NCBI RefSeq assembly: GCF_027568515.1
Contig: NZ_JANKZF010000003.1
Coordinates: 1-64,000 of the forward strand
DNA: 64,000 bases
DNA from: Arthrobacter sp. HY1533
GTDB taxonomy: Bacteria > Actinomycetota > Actinomycetes > Actinomycetales > Micrococcaceae
Reading direction: 5' to 3'
Numbering within the stretch: position 1 is the stretch's first letter; the number at the start of each line of letters is the position of its first letter. A model generated the notes under the pieces. It worked only from the letters and a program-made list of their open reading frames with translations. It had not been told where the DNA came from and made no database searches. Shown piece after piece: positions 56,143 through 63,380 of this stretch. Made by a program: the position numbers and the translations under genes.

Positions 56143-57018
56143 CTAGGCTGCGACGGTTGGCCGCGCGGCCCAGCCCCGGCGGCGGCGCCAGGCACCGGCC
56201 GCCCGGCACAGCACGTAGATGACAAACGACAGCGTGGTGACGTACGGGCTGATCGGGATGCTGCCGCCCAGGGCCAGCATGATGCCGCCAACGGTGGCAA
56301 TCATGGCGAAGGCCACGCTCAGCAGCACCACCATGCGCGGGGCCGCGGTGACCTGCAGGGCCGCAGCCGCCGGGGTGATGAGCAGGGCCAGCACCAGCAG
56401 GGCACCCACCACCTGGATGGACAGCGCCACGGCAATGCCCAGCAGGAACATGAACGCCAGCGACAGGGCACGCACCGGCACGCCGCGTGCCGTGGCAATG
56501 TCCGGGTCGGCGCTGGCAAAGGTCAGCGGCCGCCAGATGAGTGCAAGCCCGGCCACCACCACCAGGGCGGTGCCGGCCAGGACGGATAGCTGGGTGGCGT
56601 CCACCGAGACAATCTGGCCTGTGAGGAGCCCGAACTTGTTGGCCGAGCGCCCCTCGTAGAGGGACAGGAACAAGATGCCCAGTCCCAGGCCAAAGGGCAT
56701 GATGACGCCGATGACGGAGTTTTTCTCCCTGGCCCGCACGCCCATGACGCCCAGCAGCAGGGCCGCCAGGATGGAGCCCACCAGCGAGCCGAAAATGACG
56801 TCGGCGCCAATCAGCAGCGCAAAGGCGGCGCCGGCAAAGGAGAGCTCGGCAATGCCATGCACGGCGAAGGCGAGGTCGCGCATCATGACGAAGGTGCCGA
56901 TCAGCCCGCCGACAACGCCCAGGATGGCCCCGGCGAGCAGCGTGTCGCGGAACAGCGGCAGCAGTTCGCCGTAGTTGGAGAAGTTGAAAACGGCGTCGGA
57001 AAAGTCAGCCCAGTTCAT
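56143..57018 (-). CDS. znuB: Zinc ABC transporter permease
   Basis: The membrane permease (291 aa) has about eight helices and the family motif GVVGGLIGTFVMMRDLAFAVHGIAELSFAGAAFALL, which identifies the ABC-3 metal permease family. Its start overlaps znuC by ATGA. With ZnuC and ZnuA it imports zinc. The assignment to zinc rather than manganese rests on the nearby zur gene and Zur-like boxes. Confidence 0.93.
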   Translation of the reverse strand: MNWADFSDAVFNFSNYGELLPLFRDTLLAGAILGVVGGLIGTFVMMRDLAFAVHGIAELSFAGAAFALLIGADVIFGSLVGSILAALLLGVMGVRAREKNSVIGVIMPFGLGLGILFLSLYEGRSANKFGLLTGQIVSVDATQLSVLAGTALVVVAGLALIWRPLTFASADPDIATARGVPVRALSLAFMFLLGIAVALSIQVVGALLVLALLITPAAAALQVTAAPRMVVLLSVAFAMIATVGGIMLALGGSIPISPYVTTLSFVIYVLCRAAGAWRRRRGWAARPTVAA

Positions 57019-57869
57019 GCCGCCCCCTGCCCGTGGTCGTGGTCGGCGGCAAGTTCCAGTTCGGCGACGTGCCCGTCAATGACAGTGTCGGGTCTCCCCA
57101 CCACCACGAGCCGGCCGTCCATGTTGAGCACCTCCACGCGCGTGCCGTACAGCTCGGAGAGCACCTCGGTGCGCATGACCTCGGCCGGGGTGCCCACCAT
57201 GAAGCGGCCGCCGGCAAGGTACAGCACCCGGTCAACGTGTTCCAGGATGGGGTTGATCTCATGCGTGACAAAAACGACGGCGGTCCCGTTCTCCTTGGCC
57301 TGCCGACCCACCAGGGCACTGACGGCCTTTTGGTGGTTGAGGTCCAGGGAGAGCAGCGGCTCGTCGCACAGCAGGACCTTGGGGCTGGCGGCCAGGGCCT
57401 GGGCGATCCGCAGGCGCTGCTGCTCGCCGCCGGAGAGCATGCCCACGGGGATGCGGCCGTAGCTTTCGGCGCCCACCGCAGCCAGCAGTTCATCCACCCT
57501 GTTGCGGTAGGCGCGGCCGCGGATGCGGAAGCCCCACTTGTCGCCGTCAACGCCCAGTCCCACGAGGTCGCGGGCGCGCAGGGCGGTGTCGGGGGCAAAG
57601 TTCTTTTGCTGGGGCACGTAGCCAATGGTGCGGCTGCCGCGCTTGGCCGGTGACCCGTCGAGCATGACCTGCCCGGAGCTCAGCTGCGCCAGGCCCAGCA
57701 GGATTTTCAGGAAGCTGGTCTTGCCGCTGCCATTGGCGCCCAGCACGGCCAGGAACTCACCCGGGCGGACCTCAAGGTTGAGGTCCTGCCACAGGGTGCG
57801 CGGACCGTATTTCAGGGTGGCGCGCTTGAGGCTGACGACGGCGGGGGCCTCACCTTGGAGTGGACTCAC
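57015..57869 (-). CDS. znuC: Zinc ABC transporter ATP-binding protein
   Basis: The ATPase (284 aa from GTG at 57869) has Walker A GANGSGKTSFLKI, signature LSGGEQQRLRIAQAL, Walker B VLLCDEPLLSLDLN and an H-loop THE. The GTG overlaps the znuA stop (GTGA) and the end overlaps znuB (ATGA); the frame is open to 57926 without a better start. A C-terminal His-containing tail (HDHGQGAA) is present. Confidence 0.93.
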   Translation of the reverse strand: MSPLQGEAPAVVSLKRATLKYGPRTLWQDLNLEVRPGEFLAVLGANGSGKTSFLKILLGLAQLSSGQVMLDGSPAKRGSRTIGYVPQQKNFAPDTALRARDLVGLGVDGDKWGFRIRGRAYRNRVDELLAAVGAESYGRIPVGMLSGGEQQRLRIAQALAASPKVLLCDEPLLSLDLNHQKAVSALVGRQAKENGTAVVFVTHEINPILEHVDRVLYLAGGRFMVGTPAEVMRTEVLSELYGTRVEVLNMDGRLVVVGRPDTVIDGHVAELELAADHDHGQGAA

Positions 57870-58795
57870 GGGGCGGCCGGGGACTGCAGCGCCTTTTCCA
57901 GGCTCGAAACGTTCGTATCCATCCACTCAATGTAGCTGGTTTCCTGGGGCAGGGTTTCGGCGAAGTCGGCCACGGGGACGCCGGCGGCCGTTGCCGCTGC
58001 GCGCACCTCTTCTGTCTGCGGGCTGCCGGTCTGCTCGTTGTAGGCCAGCAGGTCCAGCTTGCCCGAGCCCATCAACTCAAGGGTTTCCTTCAGGACTGCG
58101 GCGGGGACGTCGCTGCCGTTTTCCACGGCCTCGGTGAACTTGTCGGGGGTTTTGTTGACCAGCCCGGCCTGCTCGAGAAGGTAGAGCGGGACGGGCTCGG
58201 TGATGGCAGCCGGCTCGCCGTCGTGCTTTTCCTTCAAGGCGGCGAGCCGGGATTCCAGCGCTGCGACCTTGGCCTTGAAGGCGTCGGCCTGCTTGGTGAA
58301 ATCGGCCGCCTGCTCCGGGCGCAGGGCGCTGAAGCGCCCGGCCAGGTCATCTGCCAGCTTGGTCATGGTGGGCAGTGAGTACCAGACGTGCTCGTTGAAG
58401 CCGTCACCCGTGTCCAGGCCCGAGAGTTCGCTGACGTTGATGGTTTCGGCAGGGTCCAGCTGGCCCTTGGCGAGCTGGCCGAAGAAGTCGTCGTAGCCGC
58501 CGCCGTTTTCAATGCCAACCTGGGCCTTGGACACGGCCAGCTTGTCCTGGGCATTGGCCTCGTAGCCGTGGGGATCGGCCCCGGCCTTGGAAATGATGGA
58601 GTGCACGGTGACGTGGCTTCCACCAATCAATGCGGCAATGTCGCCGTAGACATTGGTGGAAGCCACCACCGCAATGGTCCCGTCCGCGCCGGCCGCCGCC
58701 GGGGCCGCATCCCCGGCCCCGGAACAACCCGAGAGTGCCAGGGCGGCGGCCGCGGCAGCACCCGTGAGAAGAAGTGTCCGGCGCGAGAAGAGCAT
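57866..58795 (-). CDS. znuA: Zinc ABC transporter substrate-binding lipoprotein
   Basis: The product (309 aa) has a lipoprotein signal with lipobox LALSGCSG, then cluster A-I metal-binding fold motifs GDIAALIGGSHVTVHSII, DPHGYEANAQDK and NEHVWYSLPTMTKLA. The His-rich loop of many ZnuA proteins is missing, so it may be a lower-capacity binder. AAGGA lies 6 nt before the ATG. It is the first gene of the operon, downstream of the two Zur-like boxes. Confidence 0.92.
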   Translation of the reverse strand: MLFSRRTLLLTGAAAAAALALSGCSGAGDAAPAAAGADGTIAVVASTNVYGDIAALIGGSHVTVHSIISKAGADPHGYEANAQDKLAVSKAQVGIENGGGYDDFFGQLAKGQLDPAETINVSELSGLDTGDGFNEHVWYSLPTMTKLADDLAGRFSALRPEQAADFTKQADAFKAKVAALESRLAALKEKHDGEPAAITEPVPLYLLEQAGLVNKTPDKFTEAVENGSDVPAAVLKETLELMGSGKLDLLAYNEQTGSPQTEEVRAAATAAGVPVADFAETLPQETSYIEWMDTNVSSLEKALQSPAAP

Positions 58796-58818
58796 GTGAT
58801 TCCTTTGCAGCTTGCTAA

Positions 58819-58833
58819 TGAGAATTGTTACCA
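58819..58833 (-). promoter_or_regulatory. Zur-like box 1 in front of znuA
   Basis: On the minus strand TGGTAACAATTCTCA matches 10 of 15 positions of the actinobacterial Zur consensus TGAAAATGATTTTCA (recalled). It lies 24 nt upstream of the znuA ATG. Confidence 0.5.
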
Positions 58834-58855
58834 ATAAGACCAGCATAGCGCATAT

Positions 58856-61488: not shown

Positions 61489-61579
61489 AGGATTTTCAGT
61501 CTACCCCAGCGCCTCCGCCGCCCTGCGGAGGAAGCGCGGCGCAAAGGTGAACGTCAGCTGGGAATTTGCCGGGTACTTC
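61489..61579 (-). other. Gap after flavin reductase with hairpin and -10
   Basis: Contains a TAGACT -10-like box near 61498-61503 and a CCTCCGC/GCGGAGG stem near 61508-61527 that could weakly terminate the flavin reductase transcript. No T-run follows. Confidence 0.3.
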
Positions 61580-62095
61580 CTAGCCGGCGAGGATGCTGTG
61601 GCCGCCCAGGGCATGGAAATTCCGGCTGTGGTAGACCAGCGGTTCACCGGCCGCGTCCGGGGCAATGATGTCCAGCACCTGGGCGGCCAGGAGCAGGGAG
61701 CCGCCGGCCGGCGTGCGGCTCAGGATGGCGCAGCGCAGGGCAAATCCGCCGTGGTTGAGCAGGGGTTCGCCGCCCTCGAGCCGGGTCCAGGCCATGGACT
61801 CCGTGAAGCGCTCGCTCGTGGAGCTGGCAAAGGTGCGGGCAAGGCCAAGGTCGGCGGTGGTCAGCAGGTGCACCACAACGGTGCCGGCCACGGCGATGGC
61901 GGCCGCGGAGCCGCTGGCGGCGGCGAGCGAGAAGGCCAGCAGGGGCGGTTCGGCCGAGACCGATGCCACGGAGGAAGCCGTGATGCCCACGGGGCCCGTT
62001 GCGGAGTCGGCGGTGATCACGGCAACGCCGGCGGGGTGGCCACCAAAGGCTGCCTTGAAATCCGCGGTCAGTCCGGGCGCTGCCTGCACTGTCAT
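61580..62095 (-). CDS. Flavin reductase family protein
   Basis: The product (171 aa) has the flavin reductase-like FMN-binding split barrel: HPAGVAVITADSATGPVGITASSVASVSAEPPLLAFSL is the typical flavin-contact region, and the C-terminal H-rich end RNFHALG is conserved. It reduces flavin with NAD(P)H, often for a partner monooxygenase. The ATG at 62095 is used; a TTG two codons earlier fits AGAGGA better. Its promoter contains a SoxR box. Confidence 0.9.
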   Translation of the reverse strand: MTVQAAPGLTADFKAAFGGHPAGVAVITADSATGPVGITASSVASVSAEPPLLAFSLAAASGSAAAIAVAGTVVVHLLTTADLGLARTFASSTSERFTESMAWTRLEGGEPLLNHGGFALRCAILSRTPAGGSLLLAAQVLDIIAPDAAGEPLVYHSRNFHALGGHSILAG

Positions 62096-62147
62096 GGCCA
62101 AAAATATCCTCTCACCGTGTCCCGCCCCGTGGCAGGATCCCCCCTGA

Positions 62148-62178
62148 CTCTAGAACCTCAACAATAGTTGAGGTCAAA
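62148..62178 (-). promoter_or_regulatory. SoxR-controlled promoter of the flavin reductase gene
   Basis: On the minus strand TTGACC (-35, 62173-62178) and TAGAGT (-10, 62148-62153) are 19 nt apart, the long spacing typical of MerR-family promoters. The dyad CCTCAAC-AATA-GTTGAGG (62157-62174) fills the spacer and matches the SoxR box layout CCTCAAG-TTAA-CTTGAGG. The SoxR gene is the next gene upstream. Confidence 0.88.
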
Positions 62179-62238
62179 CCGGGCGGCCATGACGCCTCTC
62201 ACACCGGCGCCGGAGGCGGAAGCTCCGGAGCCTGCCGG

Positions 62239-62733
62239 CTACAGCGCCCCGTCGAAGGCGCGGGCGCCGGGGCCCTGTCCGGCCACCTCGTCGTCGGGGT
62301 TCACAAATCCGCACTCGGCCAGCGACAGGCAGCCGCAGCCGATGCAGCCGCCCAGGCTGCCGCGCAGCTTTTGCAGGGCGGCAATCCGGGCGTCCAGTTC
62401 CGCCTGCCAGTGCTCGGACAATCGCTGCCAGTCGGCCTGCGTGGGGACGCCGTGCTCGGGGAGTTCACCAAACACTGACGCGACAAGCGAGAGCGGGATG
62501 CCGGCGCGCTGCGCGGCCCGGATCACCGCGACCCGGCGCAGCACGGAGCGCTCGTAGCGGCGCTGGTTGCCGGAGGTGCGGGTGCTGTTGATCAGGCCCT
62601 GGCGCTCATAGAAATGCAGGGCGGAGACCGTGACGCCGCCGCGCTGGGCAACCTGGCCCACGCTCAGCGCCTCCTGCGCGCGGTGCCCGGTCCCGGCGTC
62701 GTACGCGGGCTCCGGGGAGCCGGTGCTAGTCAC
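62239..62733 (-). CDS. soxR: Redox-sensing transcriptional activator SoxR
   Basis: The product has 164 aa. The MerR-type helix-turn-helix is at residues 24-60 (SVGQVAQRGGVTVSALHFYERQGLINSTRTSGNQRRYE), followed by the dimer helix and the [2Fe-2S] ligands Cys130, Cys133, Cys135 and Cys141 in CIGCGCLSLAEC. Redox-active compounds oxidise the cluster and turn on target promoters. The GTG start overlaps the gntK stop by 8 nt (GTGACTAG), so it is made with gluconokinase. Confidence 0.95.
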   Translation of the reverse strand: MTSTGSPEPAYDAGTGHRAQEALSVGQVAQRGGVTVSALHFYERQGLINSTRTSGNQRRYERSVLRRVAVIRAAQRAGIPLSLVASVFGELPEHGVPTQADWQRLSEHWQAELDARIAALQKLRGSLGGCIGCGCLSLAECGFVNPDDEVAGQGPGARAFDGAL

Positions 62734-63277
62734 GGGTAATGGCGCGAATCCCGGCCACGGAATGGTCCAGGATCTCGGCCATGGTGGCGGAAATGTCAAC
62801 CACGACGGCGGACTCGTCGCCTTCCAGCGGTTCCAGCGCATCCAGCTGGGAGGCCAGGAGCTTGGGCGGCATGAAGTGGCCGGAGCGGCCCTCGAGGCGG
62901 GAGCTGAGCACCTCCAGCGATCCGTCCAGGTGCAGGAAGACAGTGTCCGGGGCCTGGACGCGGATGGCGTCGCGGTACCGCCGCTTCAGGGCCGAGCAGG
63001 CCACCACAATTCCGCGGGCCTGCGTGTTGGCCAGCTCGTGTCCCACCAGGTCCAGCCAGGGCCAGCGGTCCTCGTCGGTCAGCGGCGTGCCGGCGGCCAT
63101 CTTGCGGATGTTTTCCAGCGGGTGCAGGGAATCGGCATCCACGAACGGGAAGTTCATGGCGTCCGCCACGAGGGTGCCGATGGTGCTCTTGCCTGCCCCG
63201 GAGACGCCCATGACCACAACACGGGTCACTGTGGATTTCGGCGCGGGGGAAGCAGCTGCGGATTCAGAGGAAGTCAT
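62726..63277 (-). CDS. gntK: Gluconokinase
   Basis: The kinase (183 aa) makes 6-phosphogluconate from gluconate. The P-loop is GVSGAGKSTIGTLVA, followed by FPFVDADSLHPLENIRKM and CSALKRRYRD, typical of the GntK/IdnK family. It feeds the pentose phosphate route and its NADPH. The ATG lies 7 nt downstream of a TATACA -10 inside a GntR-type palindrome, and soxR overlaps its end. Confidence 0.95.
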   Translation of the reverse strand: MTSSESAAASPAPKSTVTRVVVMGVSGAGKSTIGTLVADAMNFPFVDADSLHPLENIRKMAAGTPLTDEDRWPWLDLVGHELANTQARGIVVACSALKRRYRDAIRVQAPDTVFLHLDGSLEVLSSRLEGRSGHFMPPKLLASQLDALEPLEGDESAVVVDISATMAEILDHSVAGIRAITRD

Positions 63278-63283
63278 GTCCTC

Positions 63284-63294
63284 TTGTATACCAA
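63284..63294 (-). promoter_or_regulatory. GntR-type operator overlapping gntK -10
   Basis: TTGTATACCAA is a near-perfect palindrome centred on GTATAC and includes the TATACA -10 of gntK (with an upstream TGG, an extended -10). Its place suits repression by the GntR/FCD regulator encoded upstream. Assignment is by resemblance to GntR-family TNGTATACCA-type sites. Confidence 0.5.
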
Positions 63295-63380
63295 AGGTTG
63301 ACGCAGATCACCCCACGGGGCCCGCCCGGGCGGCAACACGGCACCGCTTGCGGTTCACAATCCGGTGCCGGGGACTGACC

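Follow-up and report, generated by a model that had tools for sequence, protein, structure and literature searches.

A probable SoxR-controlled promoter of a flavin reductase gene in Arthrobacter and a possible one-residue code for SoxR operators

Our analysis implies with high confidence that the flavin reductase gene found in the window, the 64,000-nucleotide stretch of the Arthrobacter sp. HY1533 genome under study, is preceded by a SoxR-controlled promoter, and that SoxR very probably acts on this gene directly. Four features, all evident in the sequences, underlie the reading: the anatomy of the promoter, its conservation, the way it depends on SoxR from genome to genome, and the identity of the adjacent soxR gene. 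A redox switch of this sort in a soil actinobacterium would very probably turn on the flavin reductase on exposure of the cell to redox-active chemicals. The reading of the promoter has very good support, and the switch belongs to a kind already known; what would add interest beyond the promoter is the pairing of SoxR circuits in one genome and an apparent rule that links one SoxR residue to one operator base.

The minus strand of positions 62147-62177 reads TTGACCTCAACTATTGTTGAGGTTCTAGAGT and comprises a -35 hexamer TTGACC (62172-62177) conserved across the aligned tandem loci, a 19-nt spacer (62171-62153) and a -10 hexamer TAGAGT (62147-62152), which agrees with TATAAT at four of six bases. 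The spacer harbors an 18-bp dyad (62156-62173) with the CCTCAA/TTGAGG arms of a SoxR box: on the minus strand it is CCTCAAC-TATT-GTTGAGG, that is, two perfect 7-bp arms with 4 nt between them and C and G at dyad positions 7 and 12. The earlier note had described this geometry, and its dyad, hexamers and 19-nt distance are all present, but the dyad does not lie "exactly between" the hexamers as it had claimed: it shares its two outer bases (62172-62173) with the -35 hexamer, where they form the CC of TTGACC. The note had also placed the element at 62148-62178, one base off, and had called the 19-nt spacing diagnostic for SoxR/MerR activation. The spacing is there, but a spacer of 19-20 nt is general to MerR-family activators, according to PMC9909328, and it is therefore the sequence of the dyad, not the spacing, that points to SoxR. 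The claim of a SoxR box stands on this dyad, which is single in the genome and conserved at the flavin reductase loci of relatives.

The element is separated by 61 nt from soxR on its upstream side and by 45-51 nt from the flavin reductase gene on its downstream side. Since soxR is upstream on the same strand, the promoter at the box drives the reductase gene and not soxR. A simple scan of 61550-63300 found no ordinary promoter with a 16-18 nt spacer. By eye, the leader of the reductase transcript is about 40 nt; at five loci of relatives (L038, L040, L042, L043 and L083) the -10 hexamer seems to be followed within a few bases by the ATG of the reductase gene, which makes leaderless transcripts probable there.

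A chance origin of the dyad is excluded by three kinds of counts. The pattern TTGACCTCAA-N6-TTGAGGT-NN-TANNNT, with up to three mismatches allowed, has one match in the 64 kb, at zero mismatches, and none in 100 shuffles; perfect dyads with 7-bp arms and a 4-nt loop occur 22 times on both strands of the window, and only one of them, the box, is preceded by TTGA; and a search of the 4.30-Mb genome for the same 18-bp dyad, a check proposed in the earlier note, returned the exact dyad once, with about 0.02 copies expected. The looser pattern CCTCAAN6TTGAGG likewise has a single genome match at zero mismatches. At up to two mismatches it gives 106 matches against 90 for the reversed control, and thus weak matches carry no weight.

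The genes on both sides of the promoter are those that had been named beforehand. The soxR gene (62239-62733, minus strand; 164 aa from a likely GTG start at 62733) scores 201.5 bits against TIGR01950, for which the cut-off is 116.9, and matches E. coli SoxR (2zhg) at E 1.2e-46. Its product carries the cysteine cluster CIGCGCLSLAEC (CX2CXCX5C, Cys130 to Cys141; codons at 62311-62346, minus strand), the motif of a predicted [2Fe-2S] center, and the four cysteines (Cys130, 133, 135 and 141) are invariant in 15 aligned SoxR sequences. The downstream gene (61580-62101, minus strand; start TTG 62101 or ATG 62095) is a flavin reductase by its match to PF01613. Upstream of soxR lies a gluconokinase gene (TIGR01313; 62726-63277, minus strand), which overlaps soxR by 8 nt if the latter starts at GTG 62733, and a gluconokinase gene holds the same place at 7/7 same-genus soxR-flavin reductase loci. 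Inspection by eye also revealed an AGGAGG 8 nt ahead of an in-frame GTG (soxR Val25; 62652-62665, minus strand), a possible alternative start with which SoxR would lose the beginning of its DNA-binding domain. Farther away, at 56143-58846 on the minus strand, there are ORFs that by eye resemble a metal ABC transporter (permease, ATPase and binding protein).

SoxR, at E values up to 1e-30, is present in 68 of 149 Micrococcaceae genomes. Among the 82 SoxR genes of the family that we examined, 36 have a flavin reductase gene downstream in tandem, 10 have a divergent one and 36 have no flavin reductase match nearby. The box stands ahead of the reductase gene at 36/36 tandem loci, with a best match of zero mismatches in 26 promoters, one in nine and two in one. 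A TANNNT sequence at 19 nt from the -35 hexamer is found at 35/36 tandem and 10/10 divergent reductase loci; at the SoxR loci with no reductase nearby it is found in 14/36 and missing in 22/36. The information content of the 36 aligned tandem promoters is 1.69 bits per base in the box and 1.48 in the -10 hexamer, and it is 0.21 upstream and 0.24 downstream of the promoter, i.e. the flanks are near random. At the remaining tandem locus (L049) the box is perfect and CAGAGT takes the place of the -10 hexamer; other genes, one of them TetR-like by eye, have come between soxR and the box there, which indicates that the box stays with the reductase gene. At nine other loci (L015, L016, L017, L020, L024, L027, L030, L039 and L041) the SoxR boxes face genes divergent from soxR, and the place of the reductase gene is taken by genes that look by eye like those of quinone oxidoreductases or MFS transporters.

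The same alignment bears on whether the dyad could be an RNA hairpin, a terminator of soxR or an attenuator. The predicted folding energy of the 62140-62190 transcript is indeed -19.4 kcal/mol and beats 197 of 200 shuffles, but at 36 loci the arm sequences are constant, as are the hexamers and the distance between them, as is the case for a protein site, and a simple scan of 61550-63300 found no terminator-like site. We therefore reject the terminator or attenuator, whose probability we consider negligible.

The SoxR-controlled promoter is further indicated by the distribution of the box, which follows the presence of SoxR, with exceptions: TTGACCTCAAN6TTGAGGT with zero or one mismatch occurs in 63/68 SoxR-bearing and 3/81 SoxR-less genomes of the family, the exceptions being five SoxR-bearing genomes without such a box and three SoxR-less genomes with one. 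In 34 of the 81 SoxR-less genomes we searched for the reductase itself and obtained 13 matches of at least 48% identity, 12 of them with a checkable locus. At 11 of these 12 loci the orthologues (48-56% identity) have no box at up to three mismatches. These counts, together with the conservation, sustain the prediction of the earlier note that the flavin reductase is a likely direct target of SoxR. The twelfth locus (in genome G104) has CCTCGAC..GTCGAGG ahead of the reductase gene, with both arms altered symmetrically (L331:1412-1442) and TAGCGT at 19 nt, and no SoxR over the cut-off was found in this genome; the altered box may be a relic or the site of another regulator.

The persistence of that altered box where no SoxR is recognised, and the fact that repression is also known among MerR-type regulators, would fit a dyad that is a simple repressor operator or the site of another MerR-type regulator, with no redox activation. 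Against this stand the 19-nt spacing, kept at 45/46 flavin reductase loci as activation by distortion requires, and the association of boxes with SoxR across the 149 genomes, so we regard such a dyad as very improbable.

According to the mechanism that we propose for the SoxR-controlled promoter, the [2Fe-2S] SoxR made from the neighbouring gene would bind the dyad as a dimer within the over-long 19-nt spacer, and with reduced SoxR the -35 and -10 hexamers would stay out of register. Oxidation of the SoxR cluster by a redox-active compound would distort the spacer, RNA polymerase could then use both hexamers and the reductase would be made. Binding, redox switching and distortion are adopted here from established SoxR/MerR biology. 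The reductase might supply reduced flavin to partner enzymes or reduce the compound itself; this physiological task is the least certain part of the explanation.

The genome encodes a second SoxR (C66:51419-51835; TIGR01950, 176.2 bits), and so the identity of the acting SoxR is deduced from the neighbourhood and the type of box. Ahead of the second soxR gene, facing away from it, stands TTGACCTTAAGTTAGCTTGAGCT with two mismatches, and a near-identical TTGACCTCAAGTTAGCTTGAGCT lies at C62:85949-85971, starting 81 nt ahead of an Amidohydro_2 gene; dyad position 7 is G in both boxes, in place of C. One could argue that the second SoxR controls the reductase promoter instead of or alongside the adjacent one, as it scores above the family cut-off and the SoxR boxes are similar enough for possible cross-binding. 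We find this unlikely: the boxes near the second soxR and at C62 differ from the reductase box at position 7, and the reductase box persists in genomes with a single SoxR. Additionally, ten family genomes combine an Arg-type, reductase-linked SoxR with at least one further SoxR; there the reductase box is C-type in 10/10, and boxes with up to four mismatches are found near 10 of the 11 further SoxR genes (eight of them with up to three), all G-type. A candidate second SoxR circuit is made up of the second SoxR gene (L044:4345-4899, on C66), which encodes Glu after the recognition helix and has its own G-type box, and of L045:2953-3973 on C62, with the box before the Amidohydro_2 gene; for the neighbour that diverges from this soxR (L044:3234-4106), Pfam gave no match at 1e-5.

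The pairing of residues and boxes suggests a one-residue operator code of SoxR at dyad position 7, which would also separate paired SoxR circuits in genomes with two SoxR proteins; we consider this code slightly better than an even chance. It would be set by the residue that follows Y-E at the end of the recognition helix (Arg44 in the window, codon at 62602-62604 on the minus strand; Ser33 in E. coli SoxR): C in both half-sites would accompany Arg, G would accompany Glu, Asp, Gln and in most cases Ser, and Ala and Thr would occur with either. In the window's genome the code would keep the Arg-type SoxR-flavin reductase circuit apart from the second circuit with its G-type boxes. Comparison with relatives thus points to the SoxR amino acid by which one given base of the box would be read. 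The three genomes in which all boxes are G-type argue against a general insulation of paired SoxR proteins: G075 and G112 have two SoxR proteins each, one of them reductase-linked (with Asp or Glu), and G035 has two SoxR proteins and no link to the reductase.

We collected 353 SoxR loci (82 from the family, 90 from the class, 80 from named genomes of Actinomycetes and three classes of Proteobacteria, and 101 from the window's order) and counted the 246 in which a box at up to three mismatches stands no more than about 700 bp from soxR. At each locus we kept the best box under a pattern unconstrained at dyad position 7. The class and order loci are a selection from longer lists. L384 and L389 were omitted as repeats; L217 probably belongs to the G048 genome, which leaves at least one double-counted pair. 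Position 7 sorts with the residue after Y-E in the family set. For family and class together, C fills both half-sites in 54 boxes, which belong to 52 Arg, one Lys and one Ser protein, and G does so in 46, which belong to two Arg, three Lys and 41 other proteins; 14 mixed boxes were kept apart from these tallies. The named and order sets were fetched after the rule had been framed. With Lys proteins set aside, and loci dropped where the script found no helix (2/40 class loci in the named-genome run, 1/76 in the order-set run), C in both half-sites was seen for 13/20 Arg proteins against 4/33 others in the named genomes, and for 19/26 against 2/49 in the order set. Over all 246 pairs the figures are 84/109 Arg proteins and 8/137 others.

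Among 111 protein columns the residue after Y-E has the top correlation (0.73, the next being 0.48) and the best phylogenetic contrast, and among the nine half-site positions Arg is separated from the rest most strongly at position 7 (0.70, followed by 0.37 at position 9 and 0.30 at position 8). With the family set excluded, the difference persists when SoxR proteins are thinned to below 70% identity (18/29 vs 5/44, p 7.5e-6) and to below 60% (5/7 vs 2/13, p 0.02). Phylogenetic contrasts on the well-supported branches of a quick tree agree with the rule in about 3.4 cases and disagree in 0.03; the sign test is non-significant, as the contrasts are too few for this agreement to reach significance. 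Earlier runs had one (family), one (family and class) and nine (the run that gave the named-genome counts) well-supported pairs, none significant, and in the nine-pair run, with any residue set allowed per column, the residue after Y-E ranked third of 126 columns. There are counter-cases: 25 of the 109 Arg proteins go without C in both half-sites, some of them having Leu or Met next; Ala and Thr proteins have mixed position-7 boxes; and many boxes of non-Arg proteins in Proteobacteria are mixed. Four further loci (L084, L085, L090 and L093) have box-like dyads at four mismatches near the genes of Glu-type SoxR proteins; in L084, L090 and L093 both arm ends are GC, not CC (GCTCAAG..CTTGAGC), perhaps a third operator class. 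If the rule is real, sequence alone would predict which SoxR uses which box, and the specificity of SoxR paralogues would become directly testable. In the literature on SoxR paralogues and operator specificity, as represented mainly by listings, we found no residue-site rule for SoxR.

These results name a concrete, conserved, predicted direct target of SoxR for the Micrococcaceae. In an Arthrobacter genome paper a defence against outside redox-active compounds could only be supposed (PMC3534580), and titles and abstract openings of the Arthrobacter SoxR literature, few of them from subscription papers, contain no reference to a SoxR box or to a flavin reductase under SoxR control. The closest known site is the mfsA promoter of S. 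maltophilia, to which SoxR binds in gel shift and which has CCTCAAC..GTTGAGG, TTGACC and 19 bp, i.e. the same half-sites, -35 hexamer and spacing as the window; its target is an MFS pump and its soxR is divergent and autorepressed (PMC4411124). In the window, by comparison, the target is a reductase gene that follows soxR, and soxR itself is not governed by the box. The target of E. coli SoxR is soxS, a regulator gene. The E. coli SoxR box is CCTCAAGTTAACTTGAGG, as quoted in PMC4411124. The protein family, the dyad length and the MerR-type promoter position are those of the window, whereas dyad positions 7/12 are G..C in E. coli and C..G in the window, and Ser33 stands in the place of Arg44. 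The residue after Y-E has a counterpart in heavy-metal MerR regulators, which we take to be position 21 by our alignment with CueR. There, position 21 correlates with the symmetric site positions 6 and 13; that study covers five subfamilies with SoxR not among them, and the case of the window concerns positions 7/12 of an 18-bp dyad (PMC5045206).

The actinobacterial SoxR regulon of S. coelicolor, as described in PMC4146615, is small, consists of redox enzymes and includes the flavoprotein reductase SCO2478, so that a flavin or flavoprotein reductase is a target as in the window. The likeness does not extend to orthology. Five Streptomyces-like genomes searched for G-type boxes contain two box-bearing flavin reductases (L371 and L372), both of PF03358, in contrast to PF01613 of the window, and in 12/12 Streptomyces-like genomes the best homologue of the window's reductase (40-45% identity) lacks a box even with three mismatches allowed; an orthologous relation of the window's reductase to the box-bearing reductases of such genomes is thus rejected. 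We infer that SCO2478 is one of the PF03358 reductases with a box, and the SoxR-target reductase of S. coelicolor is probably not an orthologue of the one in the window. The comparison suggests that SoxR has recruited two unrelated families of flavin reductases in two actinobacterial lineages.
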